IMG/VR virus record: IMGVR_UViG_3300027608_000191
Location: 1 to 21,212 of that record
DNA length: 21,212 nt
Direction: 5' to 3' (one strand)
From: a virus
Shown here: one piece after another, positions 1 to 4,930 of the stretch
Position numbering within the stretch: position 1 is the first letter of the stretch
How the letters are laid out: each line of letters starts with the position of its first letter
Translations under genes and position numbers: made by a program
Notes under the pieces: generated by a model
Told to the model about the DNA's origin: nothing
The model's database searches: none
Seen by the model: the letters and a program-made list of their open reading frames with translations, nothing else

Positions 1-2251
1 TCTTCGTAGAGTTGTCTATTATGATTGGTGCAGCAGGAGCTGACGCTGATATAGCAAGATCATTTACTCTTTTTAAGAACGCAGGAGCAGTCGGATTTTC
101 TATCGGCATTAGATCCGCCATACTGTTGCCAAAATTAGCGCTAGCAGAACCTGTAAATGTAGGCTGTTCTTGATTATTAAAAGTCGGTTCAGCTTCATCA
201 AATCTCTGATCACCTGCCATTTCTTGAGTAGTATAAGCCCCTCGAGGGCTCATTTTTGTAATAGCGGTTAGAACCGAACGTTCGGCAGCTTTTCCAGCAG
301 CTATGCCAGTTTCGCTATCAGGATTACCTGTCGATCTAGTAAGAGGATTAGATGTTCCCGGTATTTTACCTATAGTAGATTCCCACAGATCATAGGCATA
401 ATCATTGACTATAGATCCGAGATTAGCAAACATGTTTTTAACTGTATCTATAGCTTCACCTATTTTCTTGCTAATATAACCGGCAAGATCAAAGTTAGCA
501 ATCTCTCCTATTTTTGCAACAAATTCAGGCCCGAAGTAATTTATTATCTTTTGTTTAAAATCTTCAAATGCTGTTGTTATCGCACCTGTTATACTCCAGC
601 TAGCCCACCATTCATTGAAGCTAACTGATGCACCAGCCATTTTTTCACTGACCCATTTTCCTATGTCAATGAAAAAAACTTTGACTTTTTCAATTAACGC
701 ACCTGATATAGACCAGCTATCCCACCATTCATTAAAACTGACTGATGCGCCAGCCATTTTCTCACCAACCCATTTTCCTATGTCAATAAAAAAATCTTTG
801 ACTGTTCCGATAAGCTTTGTAAACATTTCACTAAAAGAAAATGAGTTTAATTCTTTTTCAGCATTTTCAAATCCAAATTTACCCAATACCCATGCTATAG
901 CGCTTTTAAGCATATCTAGAGGACCAAATAGTAAACTGTTAAACAATCCTGTTACAGCTCCGGCTATAGCGCCAACAATTCCTTCTTTTTCGTAACCTTC
1001 TATCATACCTTTGACTGTATCCCATAAAGTCATGACAACGAATAATGGATATACCAATTTGCTAACGATACTGGACACAAATTTAAATACGCCAGCAAAT
1101 CCCCTTAAAAATTTCATCATATTTCCTGCAGTTCCTGCTACCCCAGTAAATATCCCGCTAAATGATTTGAATACATTTACTATATAATTAGCTGGACCCG
1201 AAATTAAACTTTTAAGCACATTAAACGCTTCGATAAAGGGTGCTGATAATTTAATTATCCCCTGTCCGAAAGCTGTAAGTATTCTAGCTAATCTAGATTC
1301 TGAACCTACGCTCTTAAAAAGATTGGATATTTTACTAAACGCCTCTTCAAATACAACGCTAATATTTTGAATATTTTTTGTAAAGAGTGTTTTTAATTTT
1401 AAAAATACATCATCAAAGAATGTGCCGATAGCAGTGAATTTACCTTTGATAGATTTGATGAGCGATTCAGGTAATAGTGCCTCAGCAAAAAACTTTAAAG
1501 TTTTCAACCAACCTAGGATGATCCCATAGACGGTTCCTAACGCCGCTGCGATTATCTTGCTCCATTTACCTAAAGATGATTGTTCTTCTAACTCTTTTGT
1601 ATCTGTGTCAGTAACACCTTTACCTGCTTCTCCTGATTTTCTATTAGCTTCTCTTTCAGCTTCGATGCGGCCTTTTGCTGCGGCAGTCAGTGAGTATAAT
1701 AGGTCTTGAAGCAGTTCATTGTTATCTTGCAAGACATTCAAGATGCTCTCTAAGATGCCAACAGATTCTTTTCCTGGATTTTTCCCTCCACCTGACGGAG
1801 ACGCTGCGGATCTCCTGCCGCCGGTTCCCCCGCCCTCGGCCCCCATCGTGACTAATCCGCCGACACCTGCAGCATCAAGAGTAGCAGCTGCAACGCCACG
1901 AAAACTAGGAATAGATCCTACAGAAGCAGCGATAGTTCCTGCCCCTATAGTCTTTGCTATATTACCTAAAGTCCCGTCAAGTGGGCCCCTGCCAGAAGAT
2001 ACTTTTTGTGTTACTCTGCTTAATCTGCCTTCTTCTTTCTCTTTGTATTCTTTTCTTTCTTCTTTTGTCTTTTTAGTAGAACGTTCTACAGAAGAATCTT
2101 TCTTCTTCTCGATCTTATCAAGTATCTCAGTCTGTTTCTTTGTTTCTTCTAATTGAGCCAAAGCGACTTTAGCCTGCTCAACTGCAGCAGTCTGAGTACC
2201 TTCTTTAATGATCCTTCGAAGGATGTCTTCTGGTGTATCGTTCTTAGCCAT
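1..2251 (-). CDS. Tape-measure-like tail protein (gp29 position), 3' end cut by window
   Basis: An open frame of 750 codons runs without a stop from ATG at 2251 to the left edge, so the C-terminus is missing. Residues about 15-75 are rich in Lys/Glu and likely coiled coil (AALAQLEETKK-like pattern around VALAQLEETKKQ). Residues about 129-160 are a Gly-rich low-complexity linker. A long amphipathic/hydrophobic stretch follows, with segments such as VYPLFVVMTLW (about 395-410) and GAIAGAVTGLF (about 423-435). Residues 484-561 hold two near-identical 39-residue repeats containing FFIDIGKWV and FNEWW. Length, hydrophobic helices and position directly after the gp26/gp51 chaperone locus match a tape measure, which sets tail length and lies inside the tube. 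The start overlaps the preceding small ORF by 8 bases. Sequence similarity to T4 gp29 itself is not obvious, so the role is inferred from context; another large tail protein is possible. Confidence 0.7.
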   Translation of the reverse strand, partial: MAKNDTPEDILRRIIKEGTQTAAVEQAKVALAQLEETKKQTEILDKIEKKKDSSVERSTKKTKEERKEYKEKEEGRLSRVTQKVSSGRGPLDGTLGNIAKTIGAGTIAASVGSIPSFRGVAAATLDAAGVGGLVTMGAEGGGTGGRRSAASPSGGGKNPGKESVGILESILNVLQDNNELLQDLLYSLTAAAKGRIEAEREANRKSGEAGKGVTDTDTKELEEQSSLGKWSKIIAAALGTVYGIILGWLKTLKFFAEALLPESLIKSIKGKFTAIGTFFDDVFLKLKTLFTKNIQNISVVFEEAFSKISNLFKSVGSESRLARILTAFGQGIIKLSAPFIEAFNVLKSLISGPANYIVNVFKSFSGIFTGVAGTAGNMMKFLRGFAGVFKFVSSIVSKLVYPLFVVMTLWDTVKGMIEGYEKEGIVGAIAGAVTGLFNSLLFGPLDMLKSAIAWVLGKFGFENAEKELNSFSFSEMFTKLIGTVKDFFIDIGKWVGEKMAGASVSFNEWWDSWSISGALIEKVKVFFIDIGKWVSEKMAGASVSFNEWWASWSITGAITTAFEDFKQKIINYFGPEFVAKIGEIANFDLAGYISKKIGEAIDTVKNMFANLGSIVNDYAYDLWESTIGKIPGTSNPLTRSTGNPDSETGIAAGKAAERSVLTAITKMSPRGAYTTQEMAGDQRFDEAEPTFNNQEQPTFTGSASANFGNSMADLMPIENPTAPAFLKRVNDLAISASAPAAPIIIDNSTK
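582..802 (-). repeat. Tandem duplication, 117-bp period, inside tape-measure-like gene
   Basis: Two direct copies of 104 bases lie at 582-685 and 699-802, offset by exactly 117 bases (39 codons), with 13 mismatches by my count (about 87% identity). Each encodes a 39-residue unit carrying FFIDIGKWV, EKMAGASVSFNEWW and SWSI. The period is a multiple of three, so the frame is kept. In a tape measure such a duplication would be expected to add length to the rod. Confidence 0.9.
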
Positions 2252-2417
2252 TTTTTCTTTGTTCTTCTACTTGTTTTAGATGTTGCATCAGCAGTTCCAC
2301 AAATAGATCCCTCTCATAAGGATACATATCATTTAAATCAGACATACTGTATTTATGGTGTTGCATCAAAGAGAACATAGTATTATAGTAGACCGCGATA
2401 TTAGAATACCCGGTCAT
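2244..2417 (-). CDS. 57-codon ORF in gp51 position, probable frameshift extension of gp26
   Basis: This short ORF lies in the -1 frame relative to the gp26-like gene. Its own ATG (2417-2415) overlaps the gp26 TGA stop (2419-2417), and it ends at TAA 2246-2244, overlapping the tape-measure start by 8 bases. The peptide begins MTGYSNIAVYYNTMF, contains the motif YPYERDLFVELLMQHL, and ends in a charged helix (KQVEEQRKNG). No Shine-Dalgarno sequence precedes the ATG, so translation would need either stop-start coupling or -1 slippage at 2429-2423. Slippage would give a 289-aa gp26 fusion with 59 extra residues. In T4 the neighbour of gene 26 is gene 51, a hub assembly catalyst of about 249 aa; this ORF is far shorter, so only its position is equivalent. 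Its placement before a tape measure matches the T part of G/GT-type tail chaperones. Confidence 0.75.
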   Translation of the reverse strand: MTGYSNIAVYYNTMFSLMQHHKYSMSDLNDMYPYERDLFVELLMQHLKQVEEQRKNG

Positions 2418-2429
2418 CACGTAAAAAAA
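2391..2429 (-). promoter_or_regulatory. Candidate programmed -1 ribosomal frameshift site (slippery heptamer plus hairpin)
   Basis: Read on the minus strand, the gp26 frame passes ..AGT TTT TTT ACG TGA. The heptamer T TTT TTT occupies 2429-2423. After a 7-base spacer, a hairpin starts at 2415: 2415-2411 (GACCG) pairs with 2395-2391 (CGGTC); 2396 is a one-base bulge; 2410-2406 pairs with 2401-2397 (one G-T wobble); the loop is TCTA (2405-2402). A -1 slip puts ribosomes in the 59-codon extension, which is open until 2244. Spacer length and geometry are typical of bacterial and phage -1 frameshift elements. The pairing was worked out by hand. Confidence 0.7.
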
Positions 2430-3112
2430 CTATTGAGACCCTTCAGAACAACATCAGTCGATTTGCCAGCTTTATTCTTTAATGTCACAGTATGTTCTAG
2501 AGACGGCATCGTATCAAAAAATTCTTTGATCTTGTTCATGCTATCCATAGGTAGACTGTTAACGAATTCTTCGAGATCTTTTTCTGTAAAATCCGTATAT
2601 ACTGTCTCGCTGTCATAGATCTTATCGATACACTTGAACAACATATCAAATACCGCATCTTCTTTGTTATTTGAGTCATCGAGCAATCTGACTTCATCTA
2701 GAGTGGGATATCTCATCGCCAATCCTACATCATCATGTATGATGAATTTGCTCTTATGATCTGGGTTGTGTTTGATCTCGATGTTGTCTAGATTAACTTT
2801 GAACTTGATGACTTCTTCGGTGTCAGGATCTTTGTATTCGAGATCCACGACTTCACCTATCGATTTTGAACGAAGCTTAACGAACAGATATTCAACATCA
2901 AATGTTGCTAGCTTATCTACATCTACTGTTTCGATGATACAGTTCTTAATGATCTGCTTGACTGCGGCGATAACATCTTCAGTCTTCTCTGAAGATTTTG
3001 CCATCAGAAGGATCTTTTCTTCTTGCACGGTGAATGGTTTGATATTAATGCTCTGCTGAGTAGAAGGTATTGTCACAGAGTATGTTGGGTGTTTGAGCTT
3101 AGGTAATGCCAT
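2417..3112 (-). CDS. 26: gp26-like baseplate hub subunit / tail assembly chaperone (T4_baseplate family)
   Basis: The 231-aa product begins MALPKLKHPTYSVTIPS and carries the features of the T4 gp26 family (PF12322): a short beta N-terminus, IKPFTVQEEKILLMA near residues 25-40, and a helical middle with LFVKLRSKSIGE near residue 76. T4 gp26 is about 208 aa, so the length fits. In T4 it acts in hub assembly. Its position two genes upstream of the tape measure, followed by a -1-frame extension, is the arrangement of long-tail chaperones. An AAGGA site at 3127-3123 lies 10 bases before the ATG and supports this start. The last codons form the slippery run TTT TTT, and the stop TGA overlaps the next ATG. 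It is the fourth gene of the leftward late unit. Confidence 0.85.
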   Translation of the reverse strand: MALPKLKHPTYSVTIPSTQQSINIKPFTVQEEKILLMAKSSEKTEDVIAAVKQIIKNCIIETVDVDKLATFDVEYLFVKLRSKSIGEVVDLEYKDPDTEEVIKFKVNLDNIEIKHNPDHKSKFIIHDDVGLAMRYPTLDEVRLLDDSNNKEDAVFDMLFKCIDKIYDSETVYTDFTEKDLEEFVNSLPMDSMNKIKEFFDTMPSLEHTVTLKNKAGKSTDVVLKGLNSFFT

Positions 3113-3130
3113 AATATAGGTATCCTTATG

Positions 3131-3892
3131 TTAAAAATTAATGCCGTCACGGATACGGCTGCCTTTATAGATCAATTTTTCTGTTATCTTATTCAACTGT
3201 TCATCGATATAATTGCTTGTAGAAGTCAGCGCAGTTGTTCTAGTCAGTGAATTTCTATCGGCAACACCTTGATCTAATGTGGTTGATGTCCAGTTAGTAT
3301 ATGCAAAAGTCACCGGAATTTTTAAGATCTGATCTTGCATGTTCCAATCGACCTGGATGTCTCCGATTGATATAGGATATGCTTCGAGCAATTGATATTT
3401 TACAATCGTGTTATCTGCTTGTTTTGTAGTGTTTATCTCATTCATATGGATGATCTCTACAATACCGTAATATTCGCTAGGATATTGGAAAGAATTCAAT
3501 GGCAACCCTTTGACTGTCCCGTTAGGATTTGCTGCATCATTGAAGGAAAATACTGATTGCATCCATGCATGAAAATATTTAAATACTGATCCGTCTGCAT
3601 CGCTATAGAATGTCAAAGGGACATCTTGAAATATCGTAGCATACGGACGCTTCTCGACGTTGCCGTAGCCAGACATCCTGAACTCATCTGTCTGGTATCC
3701 CAGGCCCGGAAGAACAGCGCTGTCACAAAGGAATGAGAGATTTTGTGCCCCTCCTACTACTGCAGGACCTCTGTCAGCTCGTCCGACATTAGCATTTGTT
3801 GACCTTGTGATAGTGACCATGAACTTGGATGCCTTGGACAATCCGCCTACTGAATTAACTGCAGAAAGCATTTCATTGATACTAAACGCCAT
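3131..3892 (-). CDS. 54: gp54-like baseplate tail-tube initiator
   Basis: The 253-aa protein begins MAFSINEMLSAVNSVGGL and has the tail-tube fold signature of the gp19/gp54 group: FMVTITRS near residue 24, FLCDSAVLPGLGYQTDE near 54-70, a GYGNVEKRPYATIFQDVPLTFY stretch near 75-96, then FKYFHAWMQSVF, and a C-terminal IQVDWNMQDQILKIPVTFAYTNW region. T4 gp54 (320 aa) is the first tube-like ring on the hub, from which gp19 polymerises. The shorter length also resembles gp19, but the genetic setting (with gp26, tape measure and gp48 nearby) favours gp54. It overlaps the upstream 201-aa gene by 11 bases and sits 18 bases ahead of gp26. The choice between gp54 and a gp19-like tube subunit is not fully settled. 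Confidence 0.72.
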   Translation of the reverse strand: MAFSINEMLSAVNSVGGLSKASKFMVTITRSTNANVGRADRGPAVVGGAQNLSFLCDSAVLPGLGYQTDEFRMSGYGNVEKRPYATIFQDVPLTFYSDADGSVFKYFHAWMQSVFSFNDAANPNGTVKGLPLNSFQYPSEYYGIVEIIHMNEINTTKQADNTIVKYQLLEAYPISIGDIQVDWNMQDQILKIPVTFAYTNWTSTTLDQGVADRNSLTRTTALTSTSNYIDEQLNKITEKLIYKGSRIRDGINF

Positions 3893-4487
3893 TTATGATA
3901 TCTTTCGATTCTTTATAAACATAATTCTTAGATTTCTTTGCGAATCTCTCTAGCGGCAAGAACATAGCAATGTCCCATTCATTAGCGGGTATCTGTAAAA
4001 ATCTACTCCTGACATGGCTGTGCAAATATCGTTTCACACACGGTTTGAAATATTTATAACGAGAAGCAGCATTTAATAGCTTATATGAAGCCCTTATCTT
4101 TGATGTCTCGTTGTATTTTTCATTATTTAACAGATCATAGAGATAATCCAGCAATCTCGCCCTGTATACGTGAGGGAGGTAATGCAGGTTCATCGCAAGG
4201 AAGCTGTCACCCTGATCTTCGAAAGGAAATATCAGAGGAAACCTGTCATAGTAAGGGAGGTCTTCTTTATGTTTAGGATCGTATTGAAACAGGTACATGA
4301 ATCCCGGACGAACGAAGTTCTTGTTGTATTGTGGATTCCTGCTGACCAACGTCTCTACTCTTACAGATCGAACTTCTCTTGCTTTGTCTCGGAACCAATC
4401 CCTGACGTTAGGAGCTCCTGGTTTGAGTGCAGAACCGGGTCCTAAGCTAGATTTACCTTGTTCAAGAATCTTCGTAAAAATAGGCAT
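3882..4487 (-). CDS. 201-aa conserved phage protein of unknown role between gp4 and gp54
   Basis: I do not assign a function. The start ATG shares one base with the gp4 stop (TAATG), a translationally coupled junction. The N-terminal 60 residues are basic and rich in Gly/Pro. The core has FMYLFQYDPKHKEDLPYYD (about 63-81), FPLIFPFED, then FLAMNLHYLPHVYRARLLDYLYDLL, and a C-terminal block with FKPCVKRYLHSHVRSRFLQI and WDIAMFLPLERF. From memory this DPKHK/PYYD/NLHYLP pattern recurs in marine T4-like phages next to head-completion genes. T4 carries gene 2 (DNA end protector) near gene 4, so a DNA-end or neck role is possible, but I see no direct similarity to gp2. The many Arg/Lys/His residues would suit nucleic acid contact. 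Confidence 0.8.
   Translation of the reverse strand: MPIFTKILEQGKSSLGPGSALKPGAPNVRDWFRDKAREVRSVRVETLVSRNPQYNKNFVRPGFMYLFQYDPKHKEDLPYYDRFPLIFPFEDQGDSFLAMNLHYLPHVYRARLLDYLYDLLNNEKYNETSKIRASYKLLNAASRYKYFKPCVKRYLHSHVRSRFLQIPANEWDIAMFLPLERFAKKSKNYVYKESKDIINGV
4051..4058 (-). promoter_or_regulatory. Possible internal late promoter box inside the 201-aa gene
   Basis: The minus strand reads TATAAATA, an exact match to the T4 late consensus, which would start RNA near 4045 and serve gp54, gp26 and the tape measure. It lies in codons for RYKYF, so it may be chance in AT-rich coding DNA. Confidence 0.3.
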
Positions 4488-4930
4488 TATCTCTTATCCA
4501 ATCCTAGATCTTTTTCTGTTAATATCTTAAACTGCCATTTCCTATCTAGACAGAACTGTTCAGCAGCTTTCCATTTAGCACTATTGACACCATAAGTAGT
4601 CACTTCATTGATATATCTTCTAGTTATCTTCTGTTGCTTGACCGGTTCTTTGCACTGAGCATGGGGTTTAATCTCTATTATCATCGTATTTATCACGCCG
4701 CCTTTGGCAGCTGTCTTTACCCAGAAATCAGGAAAATACCTATGGATCTTGTTGTCCATAGGGCTAACATAGGGGATAATTATCTCTTCTGATGACCATT
4801 GGATTACGCCCGGATGAGAATCAAGATGTCTCATGAACCTCAATTCCCACAAGCTCCTATAAACGATGTTTGTAGGATTTCCTTTATATTTTTCAGGAAA
4901 CTTGGGTCTAAATTTACCTTTATACGACAT
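4487..4930 (-). CDS. 4: gp4-like head completion protein with PD-(D/E)XK nuclease fold
   Basis: The 147-aa product (T4 gp4 is about 150 aa) starts MSYKGKFRPKFPEKYKGN, followed by YRSLWELRFMRHLD (24-37), VIQWSSEEIIIPY (42-54), YFPDFWV (65-71) and MIIEIKPHAQ (83-92). Glu29, Asp68 and the Glu86-x-Lys88 pair form the E...PD...ExK layout of TnsA-N/restriction-like nucleases, the fold predicted for gp4. In T4, gp4 acts late in head completion, after DNA packaging and before tail joining. It is the first gene of the leftward unit, with its late promoter box at 4966-4959; the leader is about 23 bases and has no strong Shine-Dalgarno. The role as head completion protein is family knowledge; any nuclease activity is inference. 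Confidence 0.88.
   Translation of the reverse strand: MSYKGKFRPKFPEKYKGNPTNIVYRSLWELRFMRHLDSHPGVIQWSSEEIIIPYVSPMDNKIHRYFPDFWVKTAAKGGVINTMIIEIKPHAQCKEPVKQQKITRRYINEVTTYGVNSAKWKAAEQFCLDRKWQFKILTEKDLGLDKR

Follow-up and report, generated by a model that had tools for sequence, protein, structure and literature searches.

Short and long forms of a T4-like tail assembly chaperone probably arise by −1 frameshifting at a conserved T TTT TTY site

In an uncultured T4-like phage, a gp26-type gene ends shortly after a run of seven T residues, and a small open frame continues in the −1 phase up to a tape-measure-like gene. Is this small frame a separate gene, or is it the end of a longer protein that ribosomes reach by slipping backwards? 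We addressed this question in IMG/VR virus record IMGVR_UViG_3300027608_000191, of which positions 1 to 21,212 (hereafter the window, 21,212 nucleotides) were analysed together with relatives of the same locus. The features concerned are as follows.

2..2251, minus strand: tape-measure-like gene (phrog_305, E 3.6e-5, a weak match), cut by the window edge
2244..2423, minus strand: open −1 frame, 59 codons after the slip, with a gp51-type C-terminal domain (phrog_634)
2391..2415, minus strand: downstream hairpin of 10 bp with one bulge and a TCTA loop, a putative frameshift stimulator
2415..2417, minus strand: ATG overlapping the gp26 stop (TGATG), where translation of the small ORF might alternatively begin; no Shine-Dalgarno sequence, not conserved
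2416..2422, minus strand: 7-nt spacer ACGTGAT, which holds the gp26 stop TGA at 2419-2417
2417..3112, minus strand: gp26-type gene, short form, TAC-N, 231 aa (T4_baseplate PF12322, phrog_150)
2423..2429, minus strand: slippery heptamer T TTT TTT in the gp26 phase; T TTT TTY is kept at 127/127 junctions
3131..3892, minus strand: tail tube protein gene immediately upstream, the presumed client (PF23849, phrog_45)

The gp26-type protein matches the Pfam T4_baseplate family (E 1.1e-63) and phrog_150 (E 2.6e-67), and it is at most ~43% identical to gp26 of cultured phages. The −1 ORF matches phrog_634, the gp51 family annotated as "baseplate hub assembly catalyst" (E 6.7e-19), and also weakly matches the final positions of the 282-position phrog_150 profile. 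A Pfam search of the −1 ORF found no meaningful family, and a Sec23 trunk hit (E 0.056) was judged to be due to chance. The gp26-type gene lies between the tail tube and tape measure genes; the latter is assigned from its position and the weak phrog_305 match, and its start overlaps the end of the −1 ORF. It also carries a 117-bp (39-codon) tandem repeat at 577-803 (1.9 copies, 87% matches), which could reflect tail-length variation. On the other side of the locus, next to a DNA end protector gene (phrog_429), a gp4-type head closure gene with a TnsA-like nuclease domain (PF08722, phrog_218; 3882-4930, minus strand) immediately precedes the tail tube gene.

The AlphaFold2 model of gp26 has a pLDDT of 87. 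For its residues 1-94, 2ob9 (the HK97 tail assembly chaperone) and 3fgx lead the solved structures in VIA-align, both with Z 7.7 against 4.1 for the next, over ~85 residues with an rmsd of 3.7-3.8; the match is supportive, but its Z, being <8, is under the level at which it could be relied on by itself. Foldseek comparison of the gp26 model with the PDB gave no significant match (E >1). The −1 domain is predicted to be all helical (pLDDT 80).

The layout is that of a known system. In phage lambda, gpG and gpGT are produced by a tail-assembly frameshift (Levin 1993; Xu 2004, as summarised in PMC5009743), and this G-T frameshift was described in 2016 as conserved in long-tailed phages "except T4" (PMC5009743). 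The lambda gene likewise lies between the tail tube and tape measure genes and has a short form and a −1 frameshifted long form. Compared by layout, the locus studied here differs in having T TTT TTY in place of the lambda heptamer and a clear downstream hairpin in the clade of the window. The lambda slippery heptamer is G GGA AAG.

The original prediction was aware of no such description for a gp26/gp51 locus, and its claim of novelty has to be withdrawn. According to papers that cite Vladimirov, Gautam and Davidson (2022, doi 10.1016/j.virol.2021.11.003), gp26 and gp51 are the tail assembly chaperones of T4-like phages, so the T4-type chaperone role of the gene pair was already known. The title of that work speaks of a mechanism other than frameshifting. 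Citing it, PMC10885494 states that some T4-like phages have a short gene and a long fused gene, and PMC12846349 treats poly-T slippery sequences in T4-like TAC-N genes as known. As far as these citing papers convey it, frameshifting in at least some T4-like phages was thus very probably known already. PMC12846349 also describes a chaperone frameshift with a GTTTTT motif in the Vandenendeviridae and Andersonviridae, which share the poly-T slip site, the −1 direction and the position upstream of the tape measure gene but are other families with another motif. In cyanophages, gp51 has ~20% of its usual length, and in cyanophages and marine vibriophages it is without the first ~200 residues (Sullivan 2010, PMC3037559). 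The gp26 and short gp51 genes of these phages show a similar gene order and the same −1 phase, with T TTT TTC or T TTT TTT, whereas the window has the diverged gp26 noted above and a hairpin of its own clade.

Direct reading of the minus strand shows that the gp26-type gene ends ...GGT CTC AAT AGT TTT TTT ACG TGA TGACCGGGTATTCTAATATCGCGGTC..., with ACG as the single sense codon between the heptamer and the stop. The −1 frame runs from its first codon, TAC at 2423-2421, to a TAA stop at 2246-2244, and its 59 codons after the slip translate as YVMTGYSNIAVYYNTMFSLMQHHKYSMSDLNDMYPYERDLFVELLMQHLKQVEEQRKNG; the predicted fusion has 230 + 59 = 289 aa. The hairpin, written 5' to 3', is GACCGGGTAT-TCTA-ATATC-G-CGGTC (2415-2391), so that GACCG and GGTAT face ATATC, a bulged G and CGGTC. 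The heptamer, 7-nt spacer, 10-bp bulged hairpin, 59-codon −1 frame and 289-aa product of the original prediction were all recovered base for base. The 17 main genes of the window (6,995 codons) contain 36 in-phase X XXY YYZ heptamers, and all except the one at the gp26 junction run into a −1 stop after at most 29 open codons. The local folding energy of the hairpin is ~ −9.7 kcal/mol. Since the 71-nt stretch around it folds only mildly better than its shuffles (z −1.4), the hairpin is unconvincing on its own. An Rfam scan of the window returned zero matches.

We compared 121 complete junctions including that of the window, obtained from two IMG/VR scans with gp26 and from seven cultured-phage records. 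Some of these loci are near-identical or overlapping, and a dereplicated set of 78 representatives (<80% identity) was used where indicated below. In search of exceptions, the junctions of Aeromonas AS-yj, BUCT-ZZ01, Pseudomonas pf16, P-HM2, S-CRM01 and Bellamy, all cultured phages, were added. T TTT TTT stands in phase at 62/121 junctions and T TTT TTC at the other 59/121. The six added phages all agree with this pattern, and at every one of the 127 junctions (121 plus six) the small ORF is in the −1 frame and the heptamer precedes the gp26 stop by 1-4 codons, across gp26 identities as low as 34%. Because the IMG/VR search was seeded by gp26 similarity, it did not select for the heptamer. At all 121 junctions the −1 frame leads into the same protein, and conservation of this protein begins soon after the slip site, including in lineages with no in-frame ATG there. 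In BUCT-ZZ01, a late sigma factor gene rather than the tape measure gene follows the pair of gp26 and −1 ORF; the heptamer is therefore kept even where the usual gene order is broken. Relatives without the heptamer and with a small ORF started on its own had been named as counter-evidence to the original prediction, and the outcome was the opposite at all 127 junctions. Judged by this comparison, the slip signal is not a product of chance, and the frameshift arrangement is the usual one in the sampled Kyanoviridae, marine vibriophage and other T4-like relatives. One metagenomic locus (L009) has an in-frame deletion of seven residues (YPYERDL) in the −1 ORF, with loss of the nearly invariant P..ER motif, and represents either a metagenome artefact or a defective variant.

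All 78 representatives (78/78) write the junction Phe-Phe as T|TTT|TTY, whereas only 4/78 control Phe-Phe pairs from other parts of these genes match the heptamer. The residue preceding the junction pair varies (Ser, Asp, Asn, Ala, Thr, Gly or Phe), and its codon always ends in T. From the pattern of codons, tandem tRNA slippage accounts for the invariant T|TTT|TTY and protein constraint does not.

The RNA downstream of the slip site was analysed in the clade of the window, for which the hairpin alignment comprises 10 distinct sequences. In this alignment 99% of the cells are paired, compared with 29-52% when the pairing partner is slid by 1-3 columns. One compensating pair is seen as C-G, A-U and U-A; seven of the ten pairs never vary, so covariation is modest. 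With its 7-nt spacer the hairpin falls within the 5-9 nt expected of a stimulatory structure, and it is conserved in the clade of the window, where it is a putative stimulator. Among the 78 lineages, the 45 nt past the slip site fold better than control stretches, with a mean z of −1.30 as against −0.24 within gp26 and +0.19 further along the ORF (p ~1e-6 and ~1e-7, respectively). S-PM2 has a 14-bp hairpin after the slip site. The hairpin type of the window is specific to its clade, and other relatives often have different or weak downstream structures. Alignment across relatives, which the original prediction had proposed for heptamer, hairpin and −1 frame together, thus upheld the heptamer and frame widely and the hairpin within one clade.

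Both parts of the protein in the window are homologous to the gp26/gp51 family of T4, but the T4 long form comes from a separate gene: T4 genes 26 and 51 lie apart on opposite strands. Residues 13-187 of T4 gp51 match the gp26 profile (E 1.6e-5), and residues 208-244 match the −1 ORF profile (E 2.9e-4). Since it combines a gp26-like domain with the −1 ORF domain, T4 gp51 amounts to a complete long form encoded by a single gene. The same tail domain is found at the end of CP220 gp51 (E 2.6e-8), and gp51 of PSTCR6 is read in the same way, as a long form encoded by a separate gene. The end of gene 26 is without the heptamer in T4 (GAG TTC TTT GAG) and in PSTCR6 (GAA TTT TTA TCA). In the phages examined, frameshifting and a separate fused gene therefore replace each other. 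The original prediction that, as in lambda G/GT, a −1 frameshift immediately before the tape measure gene extends gp26 by a gp51-type tail is supported by these results; its view of gp51 as reduced to a frameshift tail does not, as T4 gp51 is itself a gp26-like N-terminal domain followed by the same tail.

Ordinary termination and reinitiation could also express the small ORF: ribosomes that terminate at the gp26 TGA would begin again at the ATG overlapping it, gp51 would be a separate protein and the T-run would simply encode Phe-Phe. The TGATG overlap in the window, which the original prediction did not note, permits such a stop-start, and several public records give gp51 its own ORF (S-PM2, ACG-2014f and phi-ST2). 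However, only 27/78 dereplicated lineages have a −1-frame ATG no more than five codons from the slip site, and only 1/33 of the nearby ATGs has a Shine-Dalgarno-like tetramer upstream. In many lineages the first −1-frame ATG is at least 13 codons in, past conserved residues. In S-PM2, the conceptual junction after the slip reads ...QSFFR|ISMFYNNLENYYR, and ISMFYNNLENYYR begins upstream of the gp51 Met start. Reinitiation leaves unexplained both the invariance of T TTT TTY relative to the control pairs and the fused homologues in T4, PSTCR6 and CP220. We consider it improbable as the explanation of the locus, though some phages could still gain a minor product from it.

Slippage might instead be that of the polymerase on the T7 run, a reading that the seven consecutive T residues in the window invite. 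At 59/121 junctions, however, the run is six T followed by C, and a six-T run is short for polymerase slippage. The conserved unit is an exact in-phase heptamer for tandem slippage, and the −1 frame alone is open; transcriptional slippage is accordingly a very remote prospect. A sequencing error or a decayed, functionless gp51 is no more credible and is refuted by conservation, as the same phase recurs at 127 loci including cultured phages, the −1 protein is conserved, and no support for either was found.

We therefore regard it as highly probable that the locus encodes the tail assembly chaperone of a T4-like phage in short and long forms through −1 ribosomal frameshifting. The case is comparative, built on the slip site, its phase, the coding −1 frame, the hairpin of the clade and the homology to T4 gp26/gp51, and from these we infer slippage itself, its rate and chaperone action. 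Most ribosomes would stop at the gp26 stop and release the 231-aa short form. A fraction would slip by −1 on T TTT TTT, aided by the hairpin that follows the 7-nt spacer, and add 59 codons; the product would be the 289-aa long form, which has a gp51-type tail predicted to be helical. If lambda gpG/gpGT is a guide, the tape measure protein may be coated by many copies of the short form and few of the long form, whose tail domain may recruit the tail tube protein.

Annotation of the gp51 ORF is inconsistent in public records of cultured phages (L037-L043 and L126-L132 in our set). The ORF is absent from the annotation of S-CAM1, AS-yj, S-WAM1, S-CAM4 and ACG-2014j, it is annotated from an internal Met in D479, P-HM2 and S-RIM2, and other records have it as a separate full gene. 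Where it is not missed, this ORF is now named as an independent "hub assembly catalyst"; most likely it encodes the C-terminal part of a chaperone completed by frameshifting, and the annotation of gp51 would then be corrected in hundreds of genomes of cyanophages and other T4-like phages.

How widely the pattern extends, the hairpins, and the strict alternation between the signal and a fused gene may be unpublished. More tentatively, and with considerable doubt on our part, frameshifting at an invariant T TTT TTY, often with lineage-specific hairpins, might be the general route to the two chaperones outside the T4 subfamily, with T4 as the exception that has a fused gp51. If this is true, the exchange of a recoding signal for a second gene becomes directly testable. 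The phages compared here also illustrate clearly that a pair of tail-building proteins can be obtained in either of two exchangeable ways, with a recoding signal, as in most of the T4-like phages sampled, or with a separate fused gene, as in T4.
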